Of a stretch of 64,000 nt of DNA, positions 3,635-60,684 are shown one piece after another. Position 1 is the first letter of the stretch. Every line of letters begins with the position of its first letter. The DNA is from Blastocystis hominis (lineage: Eukaryota; Sar; Bigyra; Opalinata; Blastocystidae): positions 156,444 through 220,443 of the forward strand of contig NW_013171820.1 in assembly GCF_000151665.1 (NCBI RefSeq), read 5' to 3'. The notes below the pieces were generated by a model that worked only from the letters and a program-made list of their open reading frames with translations, did not search any database and was not told where the DNA came from. The translations under genes were made by a program, and so were the position numbers.

Positions 3635-3642
3635 AACAAACA
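3635..3642 (-). terminator. TGTTTGTT polyadenylation octamer
   Basis: Exact octamer on the minus strand, 4 nt past the TG at 3648-3647 that ends the reading frame of the gene starting at 4269. Confidence 0.75.
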
Positions 3643-3646
3643 ATCC

Positions 3647-4269
3647 CAACTAATCAAATCTTGCTGCATGAACATCCACGTCGCATTCCTCCTCGTAAAC
3701 CATCCGCAATAGAACGGGCTTTTCTTCACGCTCTCCGTCTACCAATCAGCTTCCTCCTTCTCTCTCACCTCCATCAAAACCGTCCACGAAAACCGAAGGC
3801 CTGAGTCGTACACCACATTGGACGACGCGAGCCGGTCCACATTTTGATTAGATTGCAAAGGAAGCAGCGCGCAAACGATTCGCTGAGCGTCCCAAGGAGC
3901 CTGGGAAACCCATTGGACATGATGGGGGGCATAGCGAAAGGAAAGGATGTTGTCTTGCCGTTTGAGATCCTTTACGACGAGCTGATCGTCTAGACGATGA
4001 AAAAGAGGGAAGGGGGACGTACAAGAGAGATAAAATGCATCGGAGGTGTGGTAGCGAACGACGAACGGATCGTACAGAAGGCCGGAAATCTTGCAGAAAA
4101 CACGCTGCTCCACGTCTGGGATGTATTTGATCATGAAGTCATGAGTCTCTCGCTTCTTCGATCGGATGTAGTACCGCGTTTGCTTGCTCTCCGGAAATTC
4201 CATTTCGGAGGGATCGATCGTCGACAGATTGGCCACGCACACGATTTTGGCGACGGAGGAGAATTCCAT
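3647..4269 (-). CDS. conserved-looking protein of unknown function, poly(A)-made UGA stop
   Basis: Two exons (4269-3769 and 3738-3647) joined across a 30-nt intron (3739-3768, GTGAGA...GGTAG) give 197 residues. Without splicing, a TAG at 3741-3739 would end the frame. No family is recognised; the sequence looks like a folded soluble protein with many aromatic residues and no signal peptide or membrane helix. After splicing the frame runs into the TGTTTGTT octamer. The last two bases before the 4-nt spacer are TG, in frame, so a poly(A) tail would make UGA and the protein would end ...QQDLIS. Reading on through the octamer gives a Gly/Arg-rich tail that looks non-coding. The start is the first ATG, just after a GA-rich leader. 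Confidence 0.65.
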
Positions 4270-4804
4270 CGAAAGAGAAATAGAATCTTCCTGGGTCCTA
4301 TTAAAATCGCTCAGTGAATATATAAAGGGCTCTGTTACTACATATCAAAGCACATGTGTTCTAATTTTACGTGGAGGATAGGTTCCGTTATATGTGTCCG
4401 TAATTCTACCATAAAGAATTGTGAAGATATTTCCGCCACGACCATCACAGGGAGAGATGAAGTTCAATACCTATGATTCACACATTGAGAGTAGATTGGA
4501 ACAGCGATAAGTACAATACAGAAGCAAAAGAATATAAAACTAGAATACTTGTTTGACTTTTCGTTTAGTTTATGGTAACGTGTTTGCCGAAAGTAGTTCT
4601 ACTCATTAGCCAAGCAAAACACAACTACGAAAAACATATTCAAAATTCTGATTCTTTAACTTATCCGTACTTTCTATTCCACCAGTATAAAGCCAATCCT
4701 TGTATTTCAAGGACGCAAATCAAAATATTTTTCGGAGTTGAGTTACTTAAACGATTACCGCGATTATCAATCCAATTCATTATCTCAATTATCTTCTCCC
4801 AATT

Positions 4805-7800
4805 ATGTCAGATATTGAGCTCCAGTCAGAGGACGACGGCTATTTAAATGGAAGCCATGATAGTGAGGGGAATGAGGAGATTCATTCCAAAGTTGAAGGA
4901 AACGATCAGGAGAGTGTAAATAGTGAGATAAGCGAGGAGAATGAAGACGATGAAATGGAAGAAGGCAGTGATGAGGACGAAAGTGACTCTGAGCGAGGAT
5001 TAAAGCGCCGGGGAGGAGAAAACAGCATTCAAAGCAAGCGCCAAGCATTCCTCGGCGACCTTGTCGACAGTGAAGCTCATGAAGACAGTAGTGATTCGGA
5101 AGACGCTGAGAACGACAAAAGTTTGGATGAAGTACACTTTTTGTGTATTACCATAATCATTTTTAGCTCAAAAAGGAAGAGGAGAAGTATCGTCAGCTTT
5201 ACTCTCTTCGGAGAGCGAATCCCTACGAGGAAGCGATCCAAAACATCGAAAGTCGGATTGAGCCGTACTTTTTATCTCTCCTTTCCCCTCTCACTCCTCA
5301 GCGACGAATATATAGTCTCCCGCCGTCGCAAAGTGATCGAAGAAGAGCCTCTGCACCCCAAGGAGCCCTCGATCGACGAAGACCTCCTTCAGAAGCAGCG
5401 CGAGCTTCAGCAAGCGGCCATCAACGAATACAACGAAGTGCGAACGGTGCCCACGATCCAAGACCCCAAGATCTACTCCGTCTCCGTGCGCGTACGCCTC
5501 GTCTTCTTTTCTCTCCGATAGCGTGGCTCGGAGATGCTCGCCGTGCTCTCCCTCACCAACAAATACCTCTACTACGAAGAGCGTGTCTACGAAGGCCGCA
5601 GCTCCGTGAACGAGACGTACATCTTCTCCACCTTCTGGCTGGGCGAAGAAGGCCTCATCTACATCGAAGCCTTCGACGAGACCATGGTTCGCAAGGTCGT
5701 TAGCGGCATGAACGTCTTCCTCTCCGCGCGGCGCAACGCTTTCCAGCTCATCCCGATCACCGAGCGCACCAAACTCATCGACAATCCGCGTCCCAACAAG
5801 CCCATCCCGCTCAACGCTTTCGTCCGCGTCGGTAAAGGACTTTACCGCGGGGATCTGGGACAAGTAGTGCGCCGAATGGACGACACGGAGCAGGTCGTGC
5901 TGAAATTGGTCCCGCGGATTGACATGAGCGAGTTCGAAGGAGGCTCGTACTCCGCGGCGTCCGTGCGGCCCGAGGCGAAGCTGTTCGACCCGAGCCGGTT
6001 CCCTGAGGGGCGTGTGTCACGTCGGAACATCGCGAAGTTCGGTAGTGGAGGCGGAGGCGTGGGACGTAGGCGGGCTGTTCTTCGAGTATAAGGGGAATTA
6101 CTACCGCGACGGGCTGCTGTTTAAGGAGTTCGCGATGAAGGACGTGAAGAAGGAGGACGTGAACGCGACGGAGGAGGAAATGAAGTGGTTCGCGGGGCAG
6201 CACGCGGCGGATCCGGCGGATTTGTTCAATCAGGAGAGCGATGGAGGAGAGAGCGAAGAGGGCGGAGAAGGAGAAGGAGAAGGGGAGGAGGAGAAGGAGA
6301 GCGCGAAGCAGACGAAGAACATGAAGTATTTCTTTAAGAACGACCACGTGCGGATTATCAGCGGGGAGCTGAAGAATTTGGATGGGATTATCGAAGAGGC
6401 GGATTTGAATCGGCACCAAGTGCACATTCGAGTGAGCGTAGGGGACGATTTCGAGACGCTGGTGCTGAACGAGTCGGAGATTGTGAAGGTGTTCAAGATG
6501 GGAGATCACGTGAAAGTGCTGGATGGAGTGTATGCCGGGGAGACGGGAACCGTGCTGATTGCGGATGATGGGTCGACGGGGTACTGCGTGGTGCTGAGCG
6601 ATTCCGGCGATCGGCAGATGCGCGTGTTCGTGAACTTTTTGACGCTGAGCGTGGAGATCAGTCAGGGATTGACGAGCGTGGAGGGATTCAATCTGTACGA
6701 TCTGGTGGCCGTAAGTGGAAATGAAATGAAATGAATGAATGAAATGAATGAAATGAATAAATTGAATGAATTGAATAAATTGAATTGAATGAATGGATGA
6801 ATGAATTTTGATCGGGTTTTGAATGAAAAGAACGATCCAATTCATTCATTCATTCATTCATCTGCTCTTTCACTCATCCCTTGTTTCTCCGTTTCCCCTT
6901 CTCACCCTCCCTAGATCCCGGGCGCCAAGGTCGGCATCATCGTCCAGCTGTCTCCTCAGCAAATCACCGTTTTGGACCAGCAAGGCAAGCTCCGTTCCTT
7001 CAACCTCTACCTCATCCGCTCCAAGAAGAACAACGTCTCGCGCAACTCCACGCTCCTGGACGCGCAGCAAAGCCAGGTGCAAGAGAACGACGCGGTCTGG
7101 ATCATCGAGGGCGACTACAAAGGCAAATCGGGCACCGTCAAGCGCATCTGGCGCAACTTCGTCTACGTCAAATGCCCCGCCATCGCCGAGGCCAACGGCG
7201 TCGTCCTCGTCCGCAACCGCCAGATCGTTCTCGACGCCGAGCACCAGCCCAAGAAGCGCACCGACTCCAAGGACACGGTGGAATCTCTGCAGGTTCGGCC
7301 GGGGATGGTGCACTGGGCCTCCACCAAACGCGGAAGCCGCGACAAGCGCGACACGCTCAAGGACGGGGTCAACGTCATCGTCAAGGAGGGTCGCTTCAAA
7401 GGACTCCGCGGTTATGTTTTTGATAGTAATGGTACGGGAGTTTCCACGTTTCCACGATTAGAGACGGATGTGAAGATCATGTTCCACTCGCGTCCGCAGC
7501 CGGTTTCCGTGCCGCGGAGCATCGTAATGCTCGCAGATTCGATGAACGGAGATAACGCCGAGATGGCGATGCCCGCGCATGCCATGCCCCCGCCCCCCTC
7601 CTATGCGCAGCCCACCGCCTGGAACATTTCCTACCCCCAGGGCGATGCAGAACCGCGGGGAGGAATGGGTTCGATGGAACCGCGGGGAGCGATGGGAGCG
7701 ATGGGAGCGATGGAGCGGAGAGAGCCGTGGCGCGTGAAGGGAGTGCTGGTTCGCGTGAATGACGGACGGAGCGGCGTGCTGATGCGATGCGGAGAGGGAG

Positions 7801-8042
7801 GAAGCGATGATGTGATGTTGGATGATCATCGAGAGGTGCAAGTGCCGAAGGAAAGTTTAAGGCCGGTTATGGCGTTTGCGACGGATCAGGAAGTGCTGGT
7901 GATCGATGATCCGGACAACGTGCAGAGGGCGGTGATGGTGAAAATGGACGGGGATGATTTGGTGGTGCGGATAGACGGGTTCGATAAGATGGTGAAGACG
8001 GCCGTGGTCGTCGATCCGAAAGTGTACGAGGAACATCATTAA
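4805..8042 (+). CDS. SPT5: transcription elongation factor SPT5
   Basis: SPT5 (DSIF/NusG family) binds RNA polymerase II with SPT4 and controls elongation and pausing in the nucleus. Seven exons give about 955 residues. Introns: 5132-5166, 5265-5301, 5492-5521, 6042-6069 (28 nt), 6711-6914 (204 nt), and a 36-nt in-frame one at 7426-7461. In order: an acidic N-terminus (to about residue 110), an NGN domain (about 199-290, beginning KIYSVSVR), then KOW repeats at about 302-345, 470-505, 515-555, 645-680 and 745-790, with a further KOW-like unit near the C-terminus. The last intron has no stop and is called because its removal restores KOW spacing (GYVFDKTDVKIMF). A Gly/Met/Ala-rich linker replaces the usual C-terminal heptad repeat. 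The frame ends with an encoded TAA. The family is certain; exon 7 is the least sure. Confidence 0.92.
6711..6914 (+). other. long intron of SPT5 with GAAT-type repeats
   Basis: GTAAGT...CCCTAG, 204 nt, about six times the usual length here. Positions about 6720-6800 are a degenerate GAATGAAT/GAATTGAAT tract. Splicing restores the SPT5 frame (LVA-IPGAKVG). Confidence 0.85.
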
Positions 8043-8050
8043 CCACGCAT

Positions 8051-8058
8051 TGTTTGTT
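8051..8058 (+). terminator. TGTTTGTT polyadenylation octamer of SPT5
   Basis: Exact octamer 8 nt after the encoded TAA of SPT5. Confidence 0.85.
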
Positions 8059-8121
8059 TCACTCCGTATTCTTTTCTTTTCATTTTTCCGAGATGGGGTC
8101 GATGCGTCTTATGTTGCTACC

Positions 8122-9513: not shown

Positions 9514-9875
9514 TAGTATTGTTTTATTTTTAATAGTTTTATTGTGCATTTTGGATTTGTTTTTTCTCAAGAAATACGATGGATCTTGTTGTGGGGAGGG
9601 AGTTGAGAGTTGATGTGTTTGTTGTGCAAAGGTAAGAGAAATTGAGTTTTGTGGGATGTGGATTGTTGGATATAGGGATATACATTGAATGTAGGCGAAT
9701 AGATAGCCCTGATTTGTGCAAGGATTCGGTAGGATCGCACAGGAGTTCAAAATTAGGATTATCATTGTATGTATTTTATAGTTCCATGATTAAACTACAC
9801 TTTTCATTCACTGTAGAGTCCCTTCACTTCATTGCCATTGCTTCATTACCCTTTTCACTCAAACAATGCAATAAA
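9514..9875. other. short intergenic region
   Basis: Convergent spacer between the receptor-like gene and the minus-strand gene starting at 11213. No supported feature. Confidence 0.5.
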
Positions 9876-9887
9876 TACAAACAAAAT

Positions 9888-11213: not shown

Positions 11214-11336
11214 TCACATTGTTGTGGACTGACTATACGCATGGTGTGCTCTTCTTTGAATGTTATGATCCTCATCTTATTCTTTGTTTCTTCGACTCCA
11301 CTACATGCTCAATTCATTATACAGTCCATTCTATAT

Positions 11337-11585: not shown

Positions 11586-11728
11586 ACTTTTTTATGGTTA
11601 CTCGATGTGCTGCATTGTGTTATCGGATACAATATACGTTTATCAACAGCTGGCGGACCAACTATGCTTCGTGAATCAATCCTTTGGTAAGTGATATAGA
11701 ATCAAAGACCTACAGAGAGTTCGTGCGA

Positions 11729-13478
11729 ATGATTCGAGTATGCATTATTCCTATTCTCCTACTCATCCAAACACTCTATGCTACTTCTAGGGTGCGTGGG
11801 TCTCTCAAATTCATCACGCAAGATACGATGACAGCAACCATGACATCGAAACACGATTATGATGTGTATGATAATCCTGTGGATGTGGTGGTGACATTTT
11901 CTCAAGAAACGGAATCGCTTGAAGCAGAGCACTGTATCGTATTCCTTGATTCTTGGTTTACCTTACCGGTGTAGATTGTAAATGGAGCTGTTCATTCGAT
12001 TACCAAGCAATCGTCGACATCGTTTTGCATTTCAATAGTTCCAGCAATGCCCGGCTTTTTCTCTGTAACCTTGTCCAAATCCGTTACCTCCGTCTCTGGC
12101 GATACACTCATCAATCCACCCATCCTGGAGTTCAACTATTTAGGGTGCGAAATCACATCGAAGCGAGTCACCACAACCACCACATCCTCCATAACAGTCA
12201 CAATCATGACTAGCAAGCCATCCTATCTTTATGGATTGATTTCATCCACTCCCATGCAGTCTGCGCCGTCTGCTTCCACCATCATCTCCCAAGCACAAGC
12301 ATCTTCTGAGCAGCTTTCCACTTCCCATCTTCTCCAGTTTACCGATCTGGAAGAAGACACCAAATACACAATATATTTGGCAGGAAAGGAAGAACTGGGA
12401 ACGCTTCTCGCAATCGATGAGCATCTCACGGCCCAGACAAGGTCTTCCGCTGAGCCCGATGAAGAGGACTGGGATGCTAAATCAGATGGCACGATATGTA
12501 AGAGTGGATGGGCAATTTCGAAGGATACGAACACGCTGGAATTGCTTCCCTGCTCGTATAATGGATATTGCCAGCAGTCCAAATGCATGTAGCAATGAAA
12601 AGGGGTTTGCATTGTAGATGTGCACAGAATTATGAAGGAGAGGCTTGCGAGTCCATTGTTCAAGATCCATTGGACCGAACAAACAAAACGCATCAACTGA
12701 CGCATGTTAAAATGATGTTATGGGGAGAATTTGATGAATCGTCGCGACTGGAAGCATACTGGAAATTGTCCTTACGAGAAAGCAATAGTCTTTGTTCGCG
12801 GAATAATCGATAGTTGTAAGTGATCGACTCTCCTTATCGCCTTCCCTTGTTCAAATTCGTCACTGGAAGTATCCAGAAACAACAACTCTGTCTTCATTAA
12901 GCCGATTCATAGGTCTTTCTGATGAGAAGGAAAAGACGATCGCTATCCATGTAATGGTTTGCGGAACGTGTGATCTAGATGACCGTTGTTACAGGGCAAG
13001 ATATGCTCGTTCTGGTGACAAAACGATTGAATGAGATGATTGCAGAGAATGACATCAAAGAAGGAATGAAGGGAAAGCGACTGACCATCACAAAGGCAGA
13101 GGTGACAGCCACCTTCACGCAGGAAAATTCGGATTTGTGGAGTTGTTATGACGAAGAACACAATGATGATGAAACGGATACAGATTGTGGAGGAAGCTGT
13201 GCAAACAAGTGTGTGCTTTTGGAAAAGTGTGGAACGGATGCAGACTGTGTGGAAGGTTTGTATTGCACAAGAAATAAGTGTATTGACCGCAGTAAGCCTG
13301 GGTTGGTTGTGTCTGAAGGTTTCTAGATTGGAAGCAAGTGTTCATTGTGGCTGTGTGCATCGTTGGTCTCATTGTTGTGATTGTGGTTGTTGTGATTTTT
13401 GGTGGAATGATTTACCAAAAAGTATTTATAGAGAATTTATTGTTTTACTGTAGATAGCCAAAGCTTCTCGTCGTAAAT
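11729..13478 (+). CDS. EGF-containing type I membrane protein, poly(A)-made stop
   Basis: Seven exons, 520 residues. Introns: 11939-11974 (36), 12589-12617 (29), 12788-12813 (26), 13015-13045 (31), 13292-13326 (35), 13422-13453 (32). A hydrophobic start (CIIPILLLIQTLYA) is a signal peptide. The ectodomain has a fibronectin-III-like strand pair (LEEDTKYTIYLAGKEELG), a textbook EGF module across the second intron (CSYNGYCQQSKC-ICAQNYEGEACES), then a cysteine-rich segment (TDTDCGGSC...CGTDADCVEGLYC). One transmembrane helix (FIVAVCIVGLIVVIVVVVIF) precedes a 15-residue basic tail. The last codon is AAA at 13475-13477, followed by T at 13478, a 4-nt spacer and TGTTTGTT, so poly(A) would make UAA. 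Probably a surface adhesion or receptor protein; that role is inference. An alternative ATG lies at about 11684. Confidence 0.78.
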
Positions 13479-13482
13479 GGTT

Positions 13483-13490
13483 TGTTTGTT
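13483..13490 (+). terminator. TGTTTGTT polyadenylation octamer
   Basis: Exact octamer 4 nt after the T that would become the first base of a poly(A)-made UAA in the EGF-type membrane gene. Confidence 0.85.
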
Positions 13491-14509: not shown

Positions 14510-14517
14510 CACAAACA
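14510..14517 (-). terminator. TGTTTGTG variant octamer of U2AF65
   Basis: One-base variant of TGTTTGTT on the minus strand, 4 nt past T at 14522, which is in frame at the end of U2AF65. Confidence 0.7.
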
Positions 14518-14521
14518 CAGA

Positions 14522-15984
14522 ATACATTGTACTGTTTGTTAGCATACGAAGCTTCTGACATAAACGTGGCTCTAACGATCCTTTTATTAAACCTTCTTCC
14601 AATCAGCGCCACTGCAGCGGACGCAGCTTGCTGAATATTTGGATACTCCACAATCACGTTCCCCACTCCCGGACTTTCGCCTCGCGGAATCGCCACCGAC
14701 AGTACTTGTCCAAAGCGCGAGCATTCCGTCTCAATATCGGCCTTAATATCGAGATAGTCCTCCGGATTCTCCAAATCCTCCTTCGTCACCATGTTCTTCA
14801 ACACAAGAATGCGCGATGGCGGCGACTTCTGAATCTGCCCTCCCGTGTTGATTCCAGCCTGCTTCAGCAGCTTCGCAGCGGTCTCCCTGGCCTTGTCGCT
14901 CTCTTCGAGGAACGGAACCTTCAAGTTGGGGAGATCCATGGTGGCCTGCTCAATGATCGCCGGATCGAGCTTCACCATCTCTTCTCCCTGCATAATCGGC
15001 ATGGGCTTCTGCTGCTTGACCGCCACAGGCCGTACGACGATGGATTGGTCGCACACCTTAATTCCATTAATGTTCTTGCACACGAGCGGAACGACCTCCG
15101 GCGACGCGTACACCACATACCCGAACCCGCGCGACTCGTTCGTCTGCGGGTCCCGCGAGATCGTAATCGACTTCACCTCGCCGAACGACGCAAAGATCGG
15201 CTTGATCTGCTCCTCGTCCACTCCCGCGGGGATTTCTCCCACGAACACCTTGCAATTGGCCTCGTTGTCGCCCTGCGCCATCGCGTCCGCGATCGCTCGC
15301 GCGCCTAGCTTGGGCGTGAACCCGATCTTGTCCAGCTGGAGCCGCGGAGGCCGGCCGGAAGGCATGGGGACGTCGGCCGGGTTGAAGGTCGGCGGACGCA
15401 CCACGCCGATGCTGATGCCCTCGTAGGGCAGGCCGTCGAGAGCAAGGCAGGCTGTGGCCAGCTCGGGCGTGGCGAACTCCACGATGGCGTAGCCTTGGTC
15501 TTTGTAGGCGATCAGCGAGGTGATGGGGGGCTGGGGGACCGGCTGGTCCACACACTTGAGGATCACGTCCACGAGGAAGTCTTTGAGCTTCTGGGGGGGA
15601 GAGGGAGAGGGAGAGAGATACCATGTCTTGATATTCGGTGGGGAGATTTGTGATGAAGAGACGCAGAATTGATTTGGATTCGGCCGTTTTGGCGTTCAGA
15701 GTGTTGGCTAAAACGCCGATTGTGCCGGTTGCGGTCAGCAGAGCTTCCGGAATGCCCTCGGGCTTTTGATCGAATAATCCTTTCTTCTTGTTTGTGCTGA
15801 AAGATTACGCAGAGATTCAAAAGACGCACCCACTACGGTCGCCGTGCGAACGACTCGGAGACCTCGAATGGCGTCGACTATGACGGTCGGAAGATCGTCT
15901 GCTGTCATAGCTATGCGATCGGTGACGATGGCTACGACTCGAGCGGTGGCTGTCTCTTGAACGCGATCTGCTGTTACGTCCCAT
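14522..15984 (-). CDS. U2AF2: splicing factor U2AF large subunit
   Basis: U2AF65 binds the polypyrimidine tract at 3' splice sites and helps recruit U2 snRNP. Three exons, 466 residues; introns 15797-15829 (33) and 15591-15621 (31). The ATG at 15984 starts an RS domain (GRNSRSRSRDSHRSS). RRM1 follows (RLFITNLPTEYQDM, about residues 91-180), RRM2 (CKVFVGEIP...GFGYVVY, about 230-310), and a C-terminal UHM-type RRM (ILVLKNMVTKEDL...GNVIVEY, about 370-455). The linker between RS and RRM1 includes LFDQKPEGIPEALL. The frame ends ...YANKQYNV with T at 14522, 4 nt before a TGTTTGTG octamer, so the stop would be made by polyadenylation. Reading past it adds a cysteine-containing tail that the family lacks. 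The introns here are too short for long polypyrimidine tracts. Confidence 0.93.
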
Positions 15985-17186: not shown

Positions 17187-17822
17187 GGAACCAGGGCAAA
17201 TTTGTTTTGTGGGTTGTTTCTTTGTGTTTGTAGTTACAATATATATATAATATATAATATATATATGATAAATCATTATGTCTTTGGATAATTCTATGGA
17301 GTTTGGTCCGCCAAGTATATGCGAAATGGATATATACCAAACATATACAATGAACACATATCATAATCAACTTTCCATTATTACCAAAAAAAGCATACAT
17401 AAATATATAAGCTCGCACCTACCAAACAGAATTCATTTAAAGGCGGGAAGGGGACCAGCCAGAGTTCAACTTAACAAAGAGGTTAAGCACCAAACTGAGG
17501 CCGTTCCATACCCTTACAAAAATTGGATCGTAATCTACGATGCCTCCATTATCAGTGGAAGCGTTAGTTTCCTTACTCATTAGTTTGAGGCCGATTTTGC
17601 TTTGGGGTCTTCAGGCTCTTCCAGAATTAAGTGAATTTTTGATTATGGGTTTGGGGAGGACTCGTTTTTTTTTCAATTGTTTGTCAACAAACCATTCTAC
17701 GCTCATTAAACGTAATGATTCACAAAAGAACAAAAGGGCAAAAGGGCAAAAGGGCAATCAATCGAGTCAAATAGTAAAAGTGATGATCCAATGAAAAACG
17801 AAAGCTTGCATTTTAAAATAAC
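17187..17822. other. noncoding region, possible structured RNA
   Basis: The first part is AT-rich with a TATATA run near 17240. Positions about 17430-17690 are less AT-rich, have no credible coding frame and contain inverted repeats, for example CTTAAC/GTTAAG around 17471-17488 and a CGTA/TACG pair near 17529-17539. Short AAGGGCAA-type repeats lie at about 17727-17757. No tRNA, 5S or snRNA signature could be confirmed. Confidence 0.35.
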
Positions 17823-20920: not shown

Positions 20921-20937
20921 GAAAACACACAAAAACG

Positions 20938-24047: not shown

Positions 24048-24055
24048 AACAAACA
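24048..24055 (-). terminator. TGTTTGTT polyadenylation octamer
   Basis: Exact octamer ending the PDIA6-like gene. With the usual 4-nt spacer, cleavage falls after the T of the encoded TGA, so the mature stop would be UAA. Confidence 0.85.
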
Positions 24056-24057
24056 CG

Positions 24058-25180
24058 TCAAATCTCATCCTCATAATCCTCTTCCTCCTCGACGACCGGC
24101 GCGTCCTCTCCATCCCACGGCTGCACCTCCACGAAGGCGGGCAGTTCGGGCAGCGGCTTGGTGCGCACGGATCCAATCTGCAATCCCTTCACAAACACGT
24201 TCAGATTATGCTCCGTGAACGCTCCGGTCTGCACAGCATACCGTCCCTTATTCCCACTAATCTACTCCTCACTGCTCTCTCTCTCTCCTACAGCCACAAC
24301 AGCTGGATAGCCGAATCCGAGGTTCAGTTTCTGCTCCAGATCGTACTGCGAGCCGCCCACCACCCAGCCGTATTCGAACAATCCGGCCACCTGCGCGTCC
24401 GCCACCGCCTTCACCGTCGCGATCAGCGCCTCGCGCTGCGTCTTGGTCGAGTCGCGGATGTCGGGCACGAAGAGAAGCATGCAGGTCGCTTCCATGCACG
24501 CCTTATTGAACTGCTCCTGCGTCGTGATCTCCTTCACTTCCACCGGCTTCGGCGCTTTCGCCGCTTTGGGGGGCTCCGTTTGCTCCTGACGGGGCTCGTC
24601 CTTCGCCTGCTGGCGAGGCTTCGGCATCTCGGCCTTCCCGGAGAGACGGGCGGACACGAGACTCTTCGCAGCCTGCAATTACGAGGCAATCAAGAAAACG
24701 TACGGAAAAGGCAGCTTTGCAGAAGGACTTGGCGTCACGCTGGTTCTGGTAGTCAGTAGGAGCGTTGTTCAAGGGATTGAAAATCTTGATGGTAGGAAAA
24801 CCCTGAATCTGGTAACGAGAAGCCAGACTCTGCTCCACAGTACAGTCCACAGCACCTGAGAGTAAAAATGAGAATACGAATACATACCAAAGTGAACAAT
24901 GCCAGTCATTGCACCGGCAGCCTTAATCCACTCGTCCTTCATCGCCTTGCAGTGTCCGCACCAACTAGAAATCATCACAGCACGCAAGAACGCACGGAGC
25001 GAAAAACTCCACCATCCACACATCTCCACTATTCAAAACAAGTTCTTTAAAATTCTTCTCCGTGAGAATTGTTACAGGCCCATCTTCAGTATAAAAAGCA
25101 AAGGTAGTACTAAATGGAATCGCCTCTCGCTACCCAAACCTAAGAAGAATCAAGCAGGCAATAAAAACGGCTCTCATCAT
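24058..25180 (-). CDS. PDIA6: PDIA6/P5-like protein disulfide isomerase
   Basis: Thioredoxin-fold oxidoreductase of the secretory pathway. Six exons, 322 residues. Introns: 25110-25139, 24965-24995, about 24856-24887, 24673-24703, 24262-24291. A signal peptide (RAVFIACLILL) precedes one a-type domain with FFAPWCGHCK; the CGHC site is made by splicing at 24965. Next come QIQGFPTIKIF, a charged linker (about residues 140-180), then the P5 b domain with LNLGFGYPAVVA and a C-terminal acidic tail (EEEEDYEDEI). Animal P5 has two a domains; only one is seen here. No KDEL-type signal is seen, so retention is unclear. A TGA is encoded at 24058-24060, but the octamer position predicts cleavage inside it. 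Confidence 0.9.
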
Positions 25181-28757: not shown

Positions 28758-28775
28758 AGGGTAGAGATTAAAGCG

Positions 28776-29034
28776 ATGTCTGGCTTTTTGGTGGAGGATC
28801 AGCGCATATTTTCCATGTTGGATAGTGTGGATATAATGAAATTGTGGGGTTTGACGTGTTTAGTAAGGAGTAGAGCGAATGTGAATCGCTATCTGAATCG
28901 ATTGATTCATCAGGATTCAGTTTGGCAGAGATTGTTCCGCGAAGATAACTCGCGAAATTTGACGATTGTGTTGCAGAATGAATGGCTACGTGAGGAGTGG
29001 AAGAAAGTCTATCCCGATATGCCCATTCCCAATT
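28776..29034 (+). CDS. short F-box-like protein, poly(A)-made stop
   Basis: 86 residues, no intron required. The pattern FSMLDSVDIMKLWGLTCLVRS followed by DSVWQRLFRED resembles an F-box: a Leu-rich helix, a Trp/Cys/Arg turn, then the terminal W-x-x-L. F-box proteins link substrates to SCF ubiquitin ligases. No substrate domain follows except NEWLREEWKKVYPD, which is common right after F-boxes. The frame reaches T at 29034, a 4-nt spacer (CAAG) and TGTTTGTT, so poly(A) would end the protein at ...MPIPN. A TAG at 29046-29048 overlaps the octamer itself and would be lost in the mRNA. Confidence 0.7.
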
Positions 29035-29038
29035 CAAG

Positions 29039-29046
29039 TGTTTGTT
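29039..29046 (+). terminator. TGTTTGTT polyadenylation octamer
   Basis: Exact octamer at the end of the F-box-like gene, 4 nt after T at 29034. Confidence 0.85.
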
Positions 29047-36240: not shown

Positions 36241-36660
36241 TAATGTATTTGTTGCATGTTTGTTGTTTACGATTTGCTCACATCCAACGTATCATCTAGA
36301 TCCAACAAAAAGAAATGATGACTATCTATATAATACGAACAATTTATAATACCATATTGTCATTATAAGTTTAATATTGATATCACACAGTTTCATTTTG
36401 GAGGAATTGAAAATAATCTCCTAACAGCAATACCAATCATACTAGTTTAATATCAAAGTGATTAGGTACTCGAACCTATTGAAAAGGGTAGGTGCGACGA
36501 AACTCTTCTGGTGAGTAGGAATGCCAAATTGTTGTTGTTCACGAATGCCATAAAATAAGTTGATTACATATGTCAGTGAAAAAACTAGTATCGGAATACT
36601 CACGATTCTTTCCTGATACCTCACAATTGAAACAGAAAAGAAAAGATCAGAAAAGAAAAC

Positions 36661-36732
36661 TCCGAAGCGGGGAATCGAACCCCGGTCGTCCGCGTGACAG
36701 GCGGAAATACTAAACCACTATACTACTTCGGA
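36661..36732 (-). tRNA. tRNA-Asp (anticodon GTC)
   Basis: 72 nt on the minus strand. The acceptor stem pairs TCCGAAG with CTTCGGA over 7 bp. The D arm contains AGTGGTTTAGT, the anticodon loop is CTGTCAC within CCGC/GCGG, and the T arm is CCGGGGTTCGATTCCCCG. The whole matches eukaryotic tRNA-Asp. There is no intron, and CCA is not encoded. Confidence 0.98.
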
Positions 36733-37050: not shown

Positions 37051-37257
37051 ATGGGTTGTTGCTGCTCCACACCAAATCAAGAGCATAGTCCTGAGGTTTG
37101 CTCGCACTCGCATTCATTTTGTAGTTTTTACAGGCTCCTGTTGTATATAACTTTTATTTTAATGCAGATAATGCAAAATGCCTGGAAGCTGCTGAATCGA
37201 TCTTTGAAAGGACAAGAACGGACTGTAGTCATACTCCGGTTATTGTTAGTTCTCCAT
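37051..37257 (+). CDS. 59-residue MGCCC protein, likely lipid-anchored, poly(A)-made stop
   Basis: Two exons (37051-37095, 37125-37256) across a 29-nt intron (37096-37124) give 59 residues beginning MGCCCS. Gly2 followed by cysteines fits N-myristoylation plus palmitoylation, so the protein is probably membrane-attached. The second exon reads APVVYNFYFNADNAKCLEAA, then a Thr/Cys-rich end. The frame reaches T at 37257, a 4-nt spacer (CTTC) and an exact TGTTTGTT, giving UAA after ...VIVSSP. Unspliced, the frame continues as hydrophobic nonsense into the octamer. No family is recognised. This is too small for routine gene finders, but intron, octamer and anchor motif all agree. Confidence 0.65.
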
Positions 37258-37261
37258 CTTC

Positions 37262-37269
37262 TGTTTGTT
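37262..37269 (+). terminator. TGTTTGTT polyadenylation octamer
   Basis: Exact octamer 4 nt after T at 37257, the base that starts the poly(A)-made stop of the MGCCC gene. Confidence 0.8.
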
Positions 37270-37914: not shown

Positions 37915-39583
37915 ATTCTGATTCTGAGAAAATTAACATTGTTGAGGTAGATAATCAAGAAAATGGAGAAGGGGTGAATATTATAAGGCCAAACATAATA
38001 GAAGTCAGACATTATACCGAACCTAATATAACACCAGTTGAAAATAATACGGAACCCAATATTATAGAAGTCAGGCATTATATAGAACCTAATATAACAC
38101 CAGTTGAAAATAATACGGAACCCAATATTATAGAAGTTTTGTATTATACAGAACCTAATATAACACCAGTTGAAAATAATACGGAACCCAATATTATTGA
38201 AGTGAGATTGTTTGAGAATCCTTTTATGGAAGTGGATAATACTTTATTAGTATTTAATTCTGGGACCTTTAATGCATTAATGTGCAGATACCCAAGTAAT
38301 TGTAACAGTTATGAATTTGATCAGTTGCAAGAGTTGAAACTCGGAGATGATTGTTTTGAATCAGTACAAACATTCCAAATCGATGGATTGAATCAATTGA
38401 AAACTATCAAAATCGGAAAGAATTCATTTACTCAGGCAAAGAACAGTACTGGACGTAATAGATCGAAATCATTCCACATATTGAATTGCAAATCATTGGA
38501 ATCCATTCAAATCGGTGAATATAGTTTCAGTGATTTTGGTGACTTTGAATTGGAGAATTGTCCACAATTACAATCCATTCAAATTGGTACAATTGGAAGT
38601 GATTCATTCAATTTCTATTATAGTTCATGTGAGATTCGAGGTATTGGTATGATATTGAATATTTGAATGATGCATAGATCTTCCAAATCTACAATCCATT
38701 ACATTAGGTGATCATGCATTTGGAAATGGTGCTGAATACTGTCTGTATAATCTCAATTCATTAGAGGCAGTCGAAATCGGCGATGAATGTTTTGAATCAG
38801 TACAAACATTCCAAATCGATGGATTGAATCAATTGAAAACTATCAAAATCGGAAAGAATTCATTTACTCAGGCAAAGAACGGTACCGGAAGTAATAGATC
38901 GAAATCATTCCAAGTATTGAATTGTGAATCATTGGAATCCATTCAAATCGGTGAATATAGTTTCAGTGATTTTGGTGACTTTGAATTGGAGAATCTACCA
39001 CAATTACAATCCATTCAAATTGGTACAATTGGAAGTAGGTCATGCAATTTCTATTATAGTTCATGTGAGATTCGAGGTATTGGTATGATATTGAATATTT
39101 GAATGATGCATAGATCTTCCAAATCTACAATCCATTACATTAGGTGATCATACATTCTATTATTCCTTCTCAACAATAATAGAAAGTATTGAATGAATTT
39201 GAATGAAATGATTGATATAGATCTTCCATCATTACAATCCATTCAACTTGGTGATTGGGCACTTGAAGGAAGAATGAATGATGATTCTTGTTCATTGACA
39301 CTTCGAAGTAATAATGAATTGATTGGTTATGATTTGCTTTGTAGATCTTCCAAATCTAACATCAATAACTTCTGTAGATCGTAGTTTCCGTAATCCTCGT
39401 GTAGTGACATTGGAAAGTATTTCTGAATATTGAATATTGATAGTATTTAGATATTCCAAAACTACGATATGTCGATCTACCTGATTCATTCGAGGTAGTT
39501 CGATCGAAATCAATTTCGAGTATAGTTTGATTGATTTGATTTGATTCATAGATGTTTCTTCGATTCTCGCTGATCTTGTCTAA
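37611..39583 (+). CDS. leucine-rich-repeat protein with Ser-Gly and 22-residue repeats
   Basis: The first exon (37611 to about 38646) encodes a charged N-terminus, a long Ser-Gly run, three copies of a 22-residue unit (TEPNIIEVRHYTEPNITPVE), and BspA-type LRRs (LESIQIGEYSF, LQSIQIGTIG). Six further exons follow across short introns: 38647-38677 or 38641-38677, 39083-39113 or 39077-39113, 39186-39220, 39308-39344, 39417-39450, 39520-39551. Nearly every new exon opens with (D/N)LP-type sequence such as DLPNLQSITLGD, so introns sit at the same place in the LRR unit. Unspliced, each exon hits a stop. The last exon ends SILADLV with an encoded TAA. Function is unknown; LRRs suggest protein binding. 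Confidence 0.72.
37836..37914. repeat. (GGTTCT)n hexanucleotide repeat, coding Ser-Gly
   Basis: About 13 copies in frame in the first exon of the LRR gene, ending in GATTCT variants (Asp-Ser). Confidence 0.95.
38004..38205. repeat. 66-bp tandem repeat, three copies, coding 22-residue units
   Basis: Nearly identical 66-bp units in frame within the LRR gene. Most differences are at the variable RHY/LYY positions. Confidence 0.9.
38345..39150. repeat. 436-bp direct duplication of an LRR exon plus its intron
   Basis: The segment at about 38345-38710 recurs at about 38781-39150, offset 436 bp near the intron. The intron copies (38641-38677 and 39077-39113) are identical over 37 nt, and the exons differ at only scattered sites. 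Confidence 0.9.
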
Positions 39584-42086: not shown

Positions 42087-42094
42087 TACAAACA
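42087..42094 (-). terminator. TGTTTGTA variant octamer of VPS13
   Basis: One-base variant on the minus strand, 4 nt after TA at 42100-42099, which is in frame. Confidence 0.65.
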
Positions 42095-42098
42095 TGAA

Positions 42099-45000
42099 TA
42101 CTCAGAATCGCTTATTTCTTCCATATCTTCGTCGGACTCGCTGAAATCATCCAGCCAATGAATATGGAACGCGTTTGTCTTCAAAAAGCTATCGACTTCA
42201 CTTTGAGCCATCAAGTTTTCGCTTGATGAAAGCACCTCAACGAAGCGTCGAACCGACTCCTCGCGCTGGTTCTTCGTCTTGAAAAGCTTCATCCGATTGC
42301 TGGTCAGATGCAGGTTACGAATATCTTCCTTGTTGCATTTCGACTTGAGCTGCTTAAAAAGTTCACTACACATCAAAAACAACGACAAAGCCTACTCTAA
42401 CGCTCCATAGCGAATATAGACATTCCACCGAGCGGGATTCTCTCCTTGCGACACGACTTCCAGCTTGTACTTCGTGATCTTCTTCTTCACTCCCGTCTCA
42501 TTGACTTCTTCTCGCTTTTTGTCCACCAACCGCGCGCTCTTCACCTTCAGGACTCGCAGATCCGGGGCCTTCCGACCACCCTTCGTCTCCGTGTCGCGTT
42601 CTTCACTGCTGGATGCCTCGGAGTGGATTTCGGGAAGCATGCGACGCACACTCTCTGCGATTGCGTCCTTGGTCATGAAATCCACGTTGGTGCAGTAGTG
42701 CTCAATCTCGGACGCGAGCTTCTCGGACTCGAAGAGAAGCTCCACCTGCTTCAGCTTCAATTCTCCATCTACCTTGGAAGTCACCGTATTCACCATGGCA
42801 CTCAGATTCTTCATCACCTCGTTCTTCTGCTTCGAGTTCTTCGGAATCAACTCCAGCTCCTGCCCATGGCGGTGGATCTCCAAGTTGCTGAAAGGAGAAA
42901 CGCCCAGGATCTTCGCACTCGGAGACATCAGCACCAGTTCGTGCGTTGTGAGAAGAACAATGTTCGACCCATTGTCGACTGCACAATGGATCACATAGCG
43001 CTCGTTGGGTTGCAGCTCGATTCCCGTGCCGCGATTTGCCTTCACGAGCAGAGCGTTTCCGCTGCTTAAGTGCTGGTTATACGGCTCCAGCACGTCATCC
43101 AGCGGGATGTACCGCGGAGCACGCAGCGGCTCCACGACCTTCTCTTTGTGCGCGATGTCCTTCACCGTATTCACCACGTTCGTCACGCTGTCGATCGCTC
43201 CCGTTGCAGTCTTGGCCGCAGCGCCGATCAGACCCTTGCCTAAGCCAGCCGCAGCGCCCAGCACTCCCTTCTCCTTAAATCCGGCACCCGTTTCGGTGAA
43301 GATTCCGGTCGCGCCCGACCATATGCCGTGAACGAGGTTCGATTTTCCGGCGGCACGGTCGGCCTGGTACTCCTCGCTGAAGGCCAACGCCGCCAAACCG
43401 TCGCTCGCAGCTCCCGTAATCTTGGTGACCGAGTTCAGAATACCGTAGGACGTCATCGACAGCAATTTCGTCGTGCCCTTACCTAAACCTCCCACGAAAT
43501 CGCGCGGTCCCTTCATCAGACCTTGAATGGGCTCCGTAAAGAAGGCAGTGATTCCGTCACTCACGTCACCAACCAATTCCACAGGATTTCCGATCATGTT
43601 CAAGGAACCAATGATCTTGTAGGACTGCTTCACCACTTCCGCACCATAGAAACCCACCACCTTCATGATAAAGGCGTAGATGTCCGCATAGTAGTTGCTC
43701 AGATAGAACGAACGCAGGTTAATCGGAGTGTTCTCCATGTTGCCCAGCAAGTTCACGATCGTGTTCAAGAACGCGATCAACGGCATCAAGCGGGGGTCCT
43801 GAGGCAGCAAGGCGGAGGACAGAGGAGCGGAGGGGTCATTGCGATACGAGAACTTCATATTAATTGGCTGAAGAATGAAGTATTCCGCAAGAATGTAGGA
43901 CTTGCCGACCTTACCAGAGACCACGTTGGCCGGAATGAAGGCGTGGCACTCGTCCAAAATCTTACGACCATCCACCTCCTGCGAATCTTCCATCGATAAC
44001 GCCAAGTCCGAAACGACACTCAGCAATGCAGTCAAAATCGCACTGTCTACTGCACAAACCATGGGCTGCAAATAGAGTCCCAAATATTCGATAATGGTAA
44101 CAGATGGATAGTACGGCATCGATACAGAAAGCTGGAATAACGGGTTGATCTCTGGACCCTGGTCCGGATTCTCCGGATCATATTCAGGATTTGGCTCGCC
44201 AGCTTCCGTCGATCCCAAAAGAACGTTGTACTTTGTATTCGGAAGATTGCTGTCGATCTGGAACTTGAGTACCGTCATTCCCAGCGAAATTTTGTTGCTC
44301 TCGCACATAATGAGCTCCATTTTCAACGACTCCATACACATGTATAAGATCTCGCGAGGGAAACTATCGACCAACGAGATGCCAACTCCGCCAAAATTGA
44401 TATCCACATGGACTGTCTCCGGATCAACCACATCACTCTCCTCATCCTCAGAAGCCAGATCATCCACTTCTTCGTCTTCGTCTTCGTCTTCACTAAAGTC
44501 GCTTTCGTTTGGCATCGGTGAGATTTTCGACTCGATTCGCTCGACTGCCTGACTCATATCCACACCTTCCTCCTGTGCCTTCGCGCATTCCTTCAGCAAC
44601 GAAATGATCGAGACTTCTTCTTCCTCCTTCTTAAGCTTCAAGAACTTCGACTTCTTCTTCTGCTTCAGCTTGTACAGCACCACGTTAAACGGATCCGCAA
44701 AATCGAATACGACTTCGCGCTGAGCCGCATTCATACCTGCACGCATGCGTAGCAAGTGGTTATCATCGCCATTTTCTAACGTTAACAGCTCTTCCTGCTC
44801 TTCCTTCTTCGTATCAAACGGTTTCGTCCAGTCGGACCCGAGCGTATCACACTTCACACTCAACTTGATCTCTTTCGTTGGCTCAGGGCAGTGATAAGGC
44901 AGAATGCATCCGGCGGGCAGCATCGTGACCTGATTCGTCTCCTTCTCTCCCAGACGCAAGCTGAGATCATACTTGGTTCTGTTCGAGATGTACATACCCG

Positions 45001-48000
45001 GAGTAATGATGACAATGTTCGTCAATGCGTAGACAAGCGGAGCATTCTCCACAATTACTCCAAAAACACGCTCACAGCTATTGGAACTGCCCTTTTGCTT
45101 ACTAGGCATGCAGAATCGGAGACTCGTTCCAATGAGAGCAAGCGAGACGCCATCATTACAATACTCAGAATCCGCCGTTTTGAACTCCATCACCTTCGAA
45201 CGGCTCTCCGAACTCATAAACGAGAACATGTAGGGCTTGAGCAGCTCCTCCTTTCCGAACGAAACGTCGGTGGTGTCGAGCGTGGGGACCGCCACTCCGG
45301 GCAGCTGAAGAGGTTCGCTCGACTTGGCACCCTTTTCGTGAATGAAGATGTCTTCTCCCGTGCGGTTAATCACCCAGAAATCGCAGTACAGCTGCATCGT
45401 GAGAATGCCCGTGATGTTCTCGATCGCCTTGTAGGTCAAGCGCAACTTTTCTCCGTTGGGTCTCTCCAGCATTACGGACTGCTGCTTCTCCTGAGGGAAC
45501 GCAACCATCGAATCCTCCAACGCAGAGAACTTCGTGAAACCCTCCGGACGCACAGCGATGCGAACTGCTGCTTCCTCTTCGCTCTCAGCGTTCAGCGGCA
45601 CTCCATTGTACTTGATCGACTGGCCCTCGGACAGAAGGCCCGAATACTTCTCCTGCTCGTTGAAGTAAATCTTGTACTCCAACGGAACAGGGAGCAGGTT
45701 TGCGAGCGACATCACGGGAGATAGAATGATGTGATAGAGCGTCACAAACTGCTTGTTGTAGATATCGTAAATGTCCTTCGACTGGACACTCACATGGAAA
45801 TACTTCGGGAGCGAGGGACTGCCGACGTTTATGCACGGCTGGATCGTATTCTCTATCAACTCGGGACTTAGGCGCATGCTGTAGTTACCAATCTGCACGG
45901 ACGGGCTTTGCATCACGCTCAGAGGGCAGTATTCGATGTCACGGTGGGCCATTGTAATCTTGGTCGCAGCGCTAGGAGCCATCGTGTTGGTGAAGGTGAT
46001 CTCCAAGTCCTGCTCCGTGAGGTTCTCCACGCAGTACTGCGAGGTGATGTCAATCACCTTCCGACCCTTGATCACCCGATTGTGAACCAAGATATCGAGA
46101 GTCTTGCCCTGCGGGTTCGTTAACTGCTCATACACGACGCGATCACGATCCACGAGGCAATCGATCTCGTTGTATCCCTCCAAACGGAGACTGATCAGAC
46201 GGTCGGGAATCTTCCGATATTCCTTCTTGAGGAACAGCAGCGTCAAGGACGGATGGGCGGGCATCGTCGTCTTTACACCCTTGCTAGGCACTGTAAACCA
46301 GCTGGGAGCATACGAAGAGCGAATTCTCTCCAGCTCGGCGGAAGATACAGTTCGAACCGTCGCAAGGCTCGTTTCAATGGATTGGACCAGGGACTCTTGA
46401 CGGGCTGAGTCGAACTGTTCGATAATGACAGAGGAATCCCGATATTGCAAGCAGCACGCGATAGGGAAGATATGACCACAAGTGGCATCGGTCTTCTCAA
46501 TGCTGTCCGTTTGTACTACCAAATTTTGACGCATCGTGAATACATCGTTCTGGAGAAGAGGAACGTGCTTAAATAGGCGGATGTGCGGCTTCACCGAGTG
46601 AAGCTCTAACCAGCGGCAGTGTGTGCGATACGAATCCACAACGTCCACAACGCCTGCATACATCACATGGTCCGTCGCCTCCTCTTCAAGCTTCTTCTTC
46701 TCCATCTCCAGCATCATGTTGTTAATGTCTCCATCCTGCTTGATGCGATACTCCAGCGTATATCCCGTGCTATTCTTCACACCCACATAGAAGTTGTTCG
46801 TCATCTTTCGCTTGCCACTCTCGCACGTCAAGAAGTCGTTCAACATATCCAGCAAGGAGGAAATCAGGGTTGCCGTCAAGTTCATCTGCAGAATGCGAGG
46901 AGCATCGAGCTTCACATGCATTGCCGTATCCTCTTCCTCCTCCTTATCACCGCCCGTGACACTATCATATGTGTAGAAGTCGTGCTCTTCCTTATCCTTT
47001 ACCTGGCGCACATGGATTCCCATGTCCCATTTCTCCATGAACGGTTCCCAAATCGCCTGGCTGGCCTTATAGTAATCTGAGTAGAAGGCGCTGTTCACAT
47101 GAGCAAAGAGGTTGTTGCCCATGCAAGCTCCCACCTTGATCTGACTCACGTTAAACTGGAGCACAGGCAGGTCGAACTCCTTGGCATCGTTCACCAGAAT
47201 GAAGGAAATCTTTTCAAACAGCACATCCGCTCGGATGTGCATCACGCTCGCGCTCGGAGGCACCGGCTCTGTCTTCGCAACCTCCTCCTTTTTGGCACGC
47301 GCCGGGGACTTGGCCTTGCTGTCCTCCACATCCGCCATGTCGCTGATTCTTCCCATAGACACAGGGGATTTCTCGAGCGAAGGAGGCGTGCTCACGATGG
47401 CGGTATTGCCGGACTCGTCTTCCTTCGCCTTCGGAAGAAGGTTCGTAATAAAGTTCAAAAACAGCTTGGCATCCAGAATTCCCAGACGGATTGTCAAATC
47501 AGAGCCCTTTACCGATGCGGTGATGTTCTTGAGGAAGTCTGTGAGAGCCACATCGATGTCCACTTCAAATGGATAAATGGCATCTTGCACGTCAGTCACC
47601 ATCAGACGCAGCTCCGAGTTCGAACGCAGACCACGCAGCGAGTTCACGCTCAACGAGGTCTTCACGTCCATGAAAGGAGTGACATGCGCATCCAATTCGA
47701 CGCCAAAGCAGAACAGGAACACCGGCACCGTCTCGTCCTTCCACTCCTCGCAGATATAGACAGCCATGCGCTGCATGTGAAGCGCCACAGTGATGTTGGG
47801 GATCAGAGATGCATCGCTCGCCTCTGGCTCCTCTGGCTCCTCCGCTGTGGGCTGTACGCTCTGTCCCTCAATGCACTCGCTATTGATTGCAGGCGCAGCG
47901 GACGCAGTGGACGCAGTCGATAGAGCCGGTCTCGATTGGGAGACCGACGAGGCCGCTTCGGTGAACGCCTCCGACACACGCGCGCCAACCGCAGTTGCCC

Positions 48001-52407: not shown

Positions 52408-52518
52408 AGAGTATTACGAAATGAACAGATTTATGATTAATCACTTCTTTCTAACGCCCCCCCTAACCGCGGTTATTTTACTACCGAAACACTTTCTCAT
52501 TGCGCAATACCAGTTTCG

Positions 52519-52526
52519 AACAAACA
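52519..52526 (-). terminator. TGTTTGTT polyadenylation octamer of the USP gene
   Basis: Exact octamer 11 nt after the encoded TAA of the ubiquitin-protease gene. Confidence 0.8.
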
Positions 52527-52537
52527 AACCGAAAACC

Positions 52538-57968: not shown

Positions 57969-58158
57969 ATTCCTATTTGTGACGGCTGTACAGAATTGCT
58001 ACAAAACTTGCTCTCCAATCAATTCCAAGGGCTCTTGAAAAGACTTCAGTACATTCACTTCCAATGGATACGACAATAATAAGAGGGAAACTATGTTTAC
58101 GCAAGCCTGGCTCTTGAGACGCTTATCATTAAATGCCCTATATACTTAAGGTTGTCAA

Positions 58159-58529
58159 TCACTCATACACAAAGTACAACAGTTTAACCGCATACTTCCG
58201 CAGTATTGCTTCAAAGAACGTCACATTACAGTGAAACAATATTTTTAACAAAACTTCATGAAGTTCAGGAAAAAACGATTCGAACGATAGAAGGTCTTCA
58301 TAGCCAGACAACCACGAGATAAACTCTATTTGATGAAAATCCGGCTCACTTCAATACCTTCCGCATCTTTCTCCTTTGCGAGAGAGATCTTTTGACGTAA
58401 ATCCTCCTTTCTCTGTTTATCATGCTTTTTATCATCATAATGATTCATCAATTCGGCAAACATTTCAGGAAGAGTCATAGTGTCGATATTATCGTATTCT
58501 TTTGATTCGCGTTTTCTACTAGATTTCAT
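58159..58529 (-). CDS. small unknown helical protein
   Basis: Two exons (58529-58358, 58325-58159) across a 32-nt intron (58326-58357) give 112 residues. The first part is charged (MKSSRKRESKEYDN, MTLPEMFAELMNHY, KQRKEDLRQKISLAKEK). The second is a set of amphipathic helices (FISWLSGYEDLLSFESFF, LHEVLLKILFHCNVTFFEAIL). Splicing avoids a stop and continues the helical pattern. No family is recognised. The stop is an encoded TGA. No octamer is seen within 100 nt. Confidence 0.6.
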
Positions 58530-59338
58530 AATAGAGCCAATATTATATGAATGACGAATAATAATTTATAATTAGCCAGAAAAACGTTTCACTTGAGTAT
58601 AGATCCGTTTTTTTACAATCTTTTTGATTCCAACAACTTGAATCATTATTTGCTTGCATAATACATACCTATATACATGTACAACTCTCTAATGCTTATA
58701 TGGTTATTATTATTGATACAAGGTAATGATGATGTCCATCTCTTCTTAAAGGCGACTGTCGCAACATTTTGTTTTTCACATAATGGTCGTTACAAATCAT
58801 TCAATAATACAGGGGATAAAAAGCATGAATAGGGAAAGAGTCGATGAAAGGGCAAGTCAGCATACAATGAAAAACATAGGGAAAGGAGTCGTTAGTCATA
58901 GAGAATATTAATAATAATTCAATAGGATTAATGAATGTAGGAATGAATAGAATATTAATTATTTTCATTTAATAATATACAAATTCAGAAAAAGAAAGCG
59001 TATTTGAATTCTACAATGCATATCACACAATAATGGTTATTTGTTATTGGAAACAGAGATACTATATTGAATCTTCAATTCTGCAAGTAAGAAACGAAGA
59101 ATTGAAATTATGTCATTATTTCAAAGGAATTGATTTTGAATACATTTTGTTGACTATTATTTCAAATGATTTAATTCATTATTCAGTTTTATTAATTTCT
59201 GTTAAATAATTACTACTATCTTTCAATATTTCACCATTATTCCCTCTCCTTTTTCATTCAATCCCACTCACTCACTTCAATGAATCGCCCTGCTATTTTT
59301 GGTTAATGATGATCCTAATGATGGGTGCTGGCCATTGA
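58530..59338. other. AT-rich intergenic region
   Basis: About 800 nt, strongly AT-rich, with no coding exon or RNA gene recognised. Confidence 0.5.
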
Positions 59339-59346
59339 AACAAACA
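59339..59346 (-). terminator. TGTTTGTT polyadenylation octamer
   Basis: Exact octamer 4 nt after T at 59351, which begins the poly(A)-made stop of the GalNAc-transferase. Confidence 0.85.
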
Positions 59347-59350
59347 ATCC

Positions 59351-60684
59351 AGACAGTGGCATTCTTAAAAAACATTTGCTGGTATGTGAAGTGAGATAAA
59401 TCATTTGGTGAAACGGTCATTACACTGCCACAAGAATAAGGAACATTGGGTGGCTGCATACGTTCTACACATGATTCCTCTATCCAAAAATAATATTACT
59501 GGGAAGACACAGTGCGCGACCCTTAAACTTCTCGGCATACCAAGAAAAAGGTTTGCAGTTGAGACGCTTCTTCAGCTCCAAGCGCTCCGAAATATCTCCA
59601 ATATTGAGCTTTTCCACCCTTCTTTCGTTAAGGCTGCTGGCATTGTAGAAAAGCTGCAAGTACTCGTCGTCCATCCAGACATGCGCAATTCGAACATAGT
59701 TTCGGACAACATCATTTCCGTTCACCGGGTAGGGGAACTTGGTTCGGAACCCGTGGGCCACGAACGAATCTTTCGCCACTACGATTCTTCCTCCACACAG
59801 CCACGTTCGGAAGGAGATCTCCACGTTCTCGCCGCCCCATGTGCGAAGATCCGGGTCCATCGCGCCCTGGTTCCACCAGTACTTGCTGATCACGAACATG
59901 CCCATTGTGATCGGCGAGTAAGGATCCTTCCGTGAGCCTCCGCCCCAGATCTGCCTCAGATCCATGCGGATGGTAGCGGAACTGCCGATGCCCTTCCAGA
60001 CGGGGAACGGAACGAAATGCTCCTTGTCCAAATTGAAGTTGATATAGTTCACCACCGTTTTGGGATCCTCCTCGATGAGACGCTTCGGGGTTTTCAGCCA
60101 GTTCGGCCCCACATACACGTGAGCATCGATGAAAGCAAGATATTCTCCGCGCGCGTTATTTCCCCCAATGTACCGAGCACCTATCAAACCCATCCGGCGA
60201 TCTATATATCGAACTCGGTTGGAGAAGCCCCACCAGTGCGAATAATGCGAACAAGAGTCTCGTTTGGATTCCATTGAACTGGTACATCTGAAAGGTCGTC
60301 AATAATCAGAATCTAGTATGTACTGCCAGTAACTATTCTGTACTTCCTTAAGATATTTCGGATCCGTATTCTCCAGAACATTGTTCACTCTACAAATACA
60401 ACATCTTTTCAAAAATACGTCTTTTCCAAAAGCTCCTCGTTAAATGAGACAATAATCACCGTGAATCTTCCGTCTCTTCTTCCCAGAGTCGAGTTTCCTT
60501 TTCCAGGGTAATGCCGCAAGCTAGGACCGTGCTTTTCAGAGTAGTAGGACATGTTACTTCCTGCCTGGATCAGACGATCGGGGTAATGCTCAATTTGTTG
60601 CACAGATAGAATGAGATGGCTTTTCAACGAGGCAAGAATCACCACGCATACTACAATCGAAATTACACTAATCAGGCTTTTCAT
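59351..60684 (-). CDS. polypeptide N-acetylgalactosaminyltransferase (GT27)
   Basis: Golgi type II enzyme that starts mucin-type O-glycans by adding GalNAc to Ser/Thr. Five exons (60684-60419, 60389-60344, 60312-60234, 60201-59500, 59464-59351) give 402 residues; introns are 29, 31, 32 and 35 nt. A signal anchor (SLISVISIVVCVVILASL) starts the protein. GT-A motifs follow: FTVIIVSFNEELLEK, ILIIDDLSD, FIDAHVYVGPNWL (DxH metal site), then MGMFVISKYWW and TWGGENVEISFRTWLCGG. The stem is short, and the C-terminal ricin-like lectin domain of animal enzymes is missing. The frame ends ...FFKNATV with T at 59351, 4 nt before TGTTTGTT, so poly(A) makes UAA. An upstream in-frame ATG at 60702 is less likely because it overlaps a preceding octamer. 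Confidence 0.92.

Follow-up and report, generated by a model that had tools for sequence, protein, structure and literature searches.

Stop codons probably completed by the poly(A) tail at gene ends in a stretch of the Blastocystis nuclear genome

The DNA considered here, called the window, is a stretch of 64,000 nucleotides (nt) of Blastocystis hominis (contig NW_013171820.1, positions 156,444 to 220,443 of the forward strand). It forms part of contig C6 of the genome searched (18,707,701 bases in 40 contigs), most likely that of Blastocystis subtype 7. A preliminary description proposed that seven genes in the window have no encoded stop codon and end at an in-frame T, TA or TG placed 4 nt before an octamer of the TGTTTGTT type, which the poly(A) tail completes to UAA or UGA. 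This proposal fits the sequence and is the published Blastocystis mechanism; stops made by polyadenylation, with an octamer-type downstream element 4 nt on, are taken as the main explanation of the seven ends at a probability of about 0.93. In-frame U or UA ends before a correctly spaced octamer are present in at least three of these nuclear Blastocystis genes. Three ends are graded as solid (14522, 42099 and 29034), one as likely (59351) and three as open (3647, 13478 and 37257). The mechanism is right, and most of the examples are plausible, some of them solid; the phenomenon itself has been known in Blastocystis since 2014.

According to the proposed mechanism, nuclear Blastocystis messenger RNAs (mRNAs) would be cleaved 4 nt upstream of a UGUUUGUU-type downstream element, and a retained U, UA or UG would become UAA or UGA through the poly(A) tail. 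Each of the seven transcripts would, by inference, be processed in this way. The cleavage point and the completed stops are taken from published expressed sequence tags (ESTs), not from this DNA. Subtype 7 ESTs place TGTTTGTT, with up to two substitutions, exactly 4 nt downstream in 2,333 of 2,419 genes; the same report counts 372 genes with created stops, 359 of them UAA and 13 UGA, and 90 more genes in which an encoded UAG or UGA turns into UAA (Klimes et al., 2014; PMC4159000). Set against the excerpted text of that report, the organism, the octamer, the 4-nt spacing and the UAA and UGA products are the same and no mechanistic difference is seen; its genes are EST-mapped, whereas the seven loci here are known from DNA alone. 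In subtype 1, A residues complete a terminal UA, UG or U in 1,693 genes, or 26% (Gentekaki et al., 2017; PMC5608401). The U, UA and UG ends described in excerpts of that work are the same as here, in another subtype and with RNA sequencing behind them. The combination of a single spacing with T, TA and TG ends had been put forward as new; passages of these two papers place it already in print. A survey of poly(A) motifs found the same element and noted an mRNA that lacks an untranslated region (BMC Evol Biol 2014;14:162; PMC4360255); in its excerpted text the gap is three bases or four, according to the counting, and created stops are not singled out as a class. A transfection study from 2019, as excerpted, describes a 324-fold loss of reporter on changing the motif together with two upstream thymines, and a 2023 paper on Colombian isolates restates the mechanism as background in the part available. 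Completion of UAA by the poly(A) tail also occurs in mammalian mitochondrial mRNAs, as told in the excerpts of Klimes et al. (2014; PMC4159000). The tail completes UAA in the same manner in both systems, the mammalian one being organellar. To our knowledge, mammalian mitochondrial mRNAs carry no such octamer.

The seven ends, each named by its last retained base, are as follows.

3635..3648, minus strand: candidate TG end (TG 3648-3647, spacer 3646-3643, octamer 3642-3635), in a model with a 30-nt intron at 3768-3739 and no further intron.
13478..13490, plus strand: candidate T end in a gene whose protein has a hydrophobic stretch (spacer 13479-13482, octamer 13483-13490); it needs an intron at 13422-13453.
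14510..14522, minus strand: end of a U2AF65-like gene (T 14522, spacer 14521-14518, octamer TGTTTGTG at 14517-14510).
28767..29046, plus strand: last exon of a gene with a weak F-box-like match (T 29034, spacer 29035-29038, octamer 29039-29046).
37257..37269, plus strand: candidate T end of a hypothetical 56-residue protein (spacer 37258-37261, octamer 37262-37269).
42087..42100, minus strand: end of a VPS13-like gene (TA 42100-42099, spacer 42098-42095, octamer TGTTTGTA at 42094-42087).
59339..59351, minus strand: end of a GalNAc-transferase-like gene (T 59351, spacer 59350-59347, octamer 59346-59339).

The 4-nt spacer is found at all seven ends, each followed by an octamer within two substitutions of TGTTTGTT; this spacing is partly circular as evidence, since the ends had been defined as octamer minus 4 nt. 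The octamer is exact at 3647, 13478, 29034, 37257 and 59351, and the two variants, at 14522 and 42099, deviate in its last base. The test that counts asks whether the reading frame leaves T, TA or TG at the end. The retained bases, read in the coding or proposed frame, are T at 13478, 14522, 29034, 37257 and 59351, TA at 42099 and TG at 3647. The claim that such bases follow a frame free of stops up to the octamer stands for 14522, 42099 and 29034 and is likely for 59351, while at 3647, 13478 and 37257 it hangs on introns. The preliminary description named no intron choices, and the introns given here are those of the present gene models. The lack of an encoded stop is true only as far as the octamer, as all seven frames meet a stop beyond the end: after 4 codons at 29034 and 42099, 7 at 37257, 23 at 13478, 24 at 59351, 27 at 14522 and 42 at 3647. 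The seven genes do look unrelated, as had been stated, being U2AF65-like, VPS13-like, GalNAc-transferase-like and weakly F-box-like, with three lacking a Pfam match. Frames were compared by a simple coding score, for which 60 long reading frames served as the training set; the best path in the required phase is set against those in the other two.

The strongest of the seven is the U2AF65-like end at 14522, which is convincing and independent of introns near the end.

14523..15792, minus strand: C-terminal exons of the U2AF65-like gene (15792-15622 and 15590-14523; RRM_1, 2.3e-28).

Pfam recognizes three RRM stretches in this gene, and residues 315-409 of its 413 match U2AF65 C-terminal domain chains (positions 4-102 of a 105-residue chain). 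The required phase scores 73.3, against 66.4 and 57.0. Of 19 homologous proteins of the U2AF65-like exon, six can be aligned as far as the C-terminus. Two of these, P0009 and P0010 (70-71% identical), have as their last residue precisely the one before the retained T, and presumably have an encoded stop there, judging from where the proteins end; P0006, P0007 and P0015 extend by the same three residues past this point, and P0008 by five different ones. The other 13 are uninformative on the end: 12 leave the alignment at one common point, probably an intron, and P0022 leaves it earlier. P0022 is an annotated Blastocystis hominis protein of 239 residues, named RNA binding protein, that matches the 14522 gene at 100% identity over 32% of the query. 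Its sequence parts from that of the aligned relatives close to where the second RRM begins, and its C-terminal sequence is unseen in them. It is probably a misannotation of the gene at 14522-15792 (minus strand); the P0022 model goes wrong by splicing and therefore never gets to the 14522 end. Separately, an exact octamer lies on the opposite strand at 14533-14540 (plus), where the U2AF65-like gene has its last codons; it may have arisen as a side effect of coding, since the residues under it are mostly alike in the six relatives with an aligned C-terminus.

The ends at 42099 and 29034 likewise need no nearby intron and are convincing. The gene models behind the 42099 and 59351 ends are these.

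42101..45598, minus strand: C-terminal part of the VPS13-like gene (exons 45598-42396 and 42365-42101; VPS13_VAB 7e-25, VPS13_C 6.7e-12).
59352..60684, minus strand: GalNAc-transferase-like model of four exons, its last intron inferred at 59499-59465 (6s22, 2.2e-35).

At 42099 the required phase scores 57.5, against 46.5 and 44.5. One VPS13-like homologue, P0003, ends at an intron of the present gene model; another, P0004 (62% identical), has a similar acidic tail that does not end at the same residue and gives the 42099 end weak support. The 29034 protein has F-box-like (0.0047) and GOLD_2 matches, both below the Pfam cut-offs, and its required phase scores 15.2, against 4.0 and 3.0; an in-frame TAG starts at the final octamer base. 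The 59351 gene is related to polypeptide GalNAc-transferases, judging from a 6s22 match over residues 108-325 of 372. Its poly(A)-made end is likely, with a required phase of 27.4 against 26.4 and 26.4, and depends on the 35-nt intron.

Frame-aware counts were made on 264 kb, made up of the window plus 200 kb taken from contig C1, which together hold 88 exact octamers. The frame was fixed 30 nt upstream, and possible cuts were then compared for an in-frame remainder of T, TA or TG. Of the 88 octamers, 26 had a clear frame; in 13 of them the frame stayed free of complete stops up to the 4-nt cut, and 10 of the 13 were completable (background 0.156, P 1.6e-6). The 59351 end passes this test despite a phase lead of about 1 unit. 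Looser thresholds gave 13 of 22, and a count that left the last octamer base free, and so took in the exact octamers too, gave 12 of 20. Reversed, reverse-complement and permuted control octamers gave 0/9, 1/7 and 4/19, before and after removal of straddling stops. Three of the 10 completable sites carry an encoded TGA straddling the cut; with straddling stops removed, 7 of 10 were completable (background 0.105), and 6 of 9 (P 8e-5) once 63639 was also taken out. In that recounted set the neighbouring offset -3 reached 4/9. In a separate count, cuts inside the T-rich octamer scored high too (7/10 at three offsets), for a trivial reason. The end at 63639 was rejected as completable, its frame being wrong and an encoded TAA standing 42 nt before the cut, in a gene that we take to encode a ribosomal protein, eS6-like. 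A stricter test that allows no splicing gave 6 of 9, with a straddling TGA in 3 of the 6 successes, and 1 of 6 for TGTTTGTV variants; its filter was passed by the 42099 end and by none of the five exact-octamer ends of the preliminary description. The whole genome holds 3601 copies of TGTTTGTT on one strand and 3703 on the other; the reversed octamer is less frequent, with 2724 and 2732. The present counts thus speak for an excess in the neighbourhood of the 4-nt cut without pinning it to a single base; the single-base precision comes from the published ESTs.

The ends at 3647, 13478 and 37257 rest on assumed, unproven introns, and their proteins, in the pieces submitted, have no Pfam match. 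At 3647 the required phase leads (27.6 against 23.7 and 17.9) on a path that uses an intron other than 3768-3739, and one more possible intron, of 37 nt and spotted by eye, would yield an encoded TGA. Two open reading frames are homologous to this gene and neither shows the C-terminus, P0001 running into the 30-nt intron and P0002 ending earlier; a survey of 49 candidate introns, a mixed set with GTTT donors in 3 of 49, was too noisy to settle the splice. At 13478 another phase is preferred (8.5 for the required one, against 10.4 and 0), the octamer at 13483-13490 overlaps a second register, GGTTTGTT, at 13479, and the 32-nt intron removes an in-frame TAG that, unspliced, stands 21 nt before the cut. 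At 37257 the coding score is about 0 and the model needs a 38-nt intron (37096-37133); a tRNA gene at 36660-36732 (minus strand, Rfam) lies in the gap upstream of this model. Some of the seven might thus carry an ordinary encoded stop, which another splice or frame would place between a few and some tens of bases ahead of the cut, a prospect to which somewhat less than an even chance is given. An automatic pass found an encoded stop within 45 nt before the cut at 11 of 25 exact octamers, in frames of mixed quality and with two ends of the preliminary description included; examples are 8046 (TAA, 4 nt), 23300 (TGA, 1 nt) and 29332 (TAG, 13 nt). This explanation fits poorly at 14522, 42099 and 29034, whose best frame reaches the end without splicing.

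Two further explanations concern all of the ends. Cleavage downstream of the octamer, with use of the next encoded in-frame stop, would add short C-terminal extensions; it is very unlikely, as the excerpted subtype 7 EST mapping cited above places the cut 4 nt upstream, and the U2AF65-like extension varies among relatives and is missing in two. That the ends arise by chance, T before an octamer being common at U-rich gene ends, is hardly credible. T does occupy the retained position at 53 of 88 exact octamers irrespective of frame, the fraction at either of the two preceding positions being 0.48; the frame-aware excess of 6/9, after removal of known errors and straddling stops and with controls at background, speaks against chance. 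The frequent T, together with G as the first spacer base in 39 of the 88, suggests that the spacer may not be quite free of base preference. Several observations weigh against poly(A)-made stops as the explanation of the seven ends. The ends are known here from the genomic sequence and not from transcripts; a stop only 4-7 codons past 29034, 42099 and 37257 means that a downstream cut would cost little; and in the automatic pass 4 of 5 exact-octamer ends have an upstream encoded stop unless an intron is assumed or the frame changed. In addition, the strict test minus straddling stops falls to 3/6 (P 0.019), no better than offsets -3 (3/6) and -6 (5/9), and one-mismatch octamers show little peak, the 4-nt cut giving 13 of 63 and offsets further upstream mostly 4-11 of 64-69. 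The weakened strict test did not change the confidence in poly(A)-made stops, whose main grounds are the published mapping and the clear frames.

One straddling stop outside the list in the preliminary description lies in the window.

24048..24060, minus strand: straddling TGA, with T 24060 retained and GA in the spacer (TGA region 24056-24060).

Here the automatic pass halted at a TAG lying 202 nt upstream of the cut; a spliced model avoids this TAG. Two more TGA codons straddle the cut in contig C1, at 174945 and 98204, and among the 88 exact octamers the codon starting at the retained T is TGA in 9, TAA in 1 and TAG in 0.

Other features of the window include a U12 minor spliceosomal RNA at 17448-17593 (minus strand; Rfam, 64.6 bits). 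U12 machinery has already been reported for subtype 7 in the excerpted text of PMC5608401. Two copies of TGTTTGTA, at 38372 and 38808 (minus strand), belong to a local direct repeat, since the 30-base flanks before them are identical.

The window serves as a check on a known oddity, which matters for gene finders that demand an encoded stop. Many Blastocystis C-termini have been misplaced by such programs, according to excerpts of Klimes et al. (2014; PMC4159000). The lineage comparison of the U2AF65-like end gives a hint of the way in which genes lose or gain encoded stops: at roughly even odds, a gene end may switch between an encoded and a poly(A)-made stop among Blastocystis lineages, with a straddling T|GA as a possible stepping stone.
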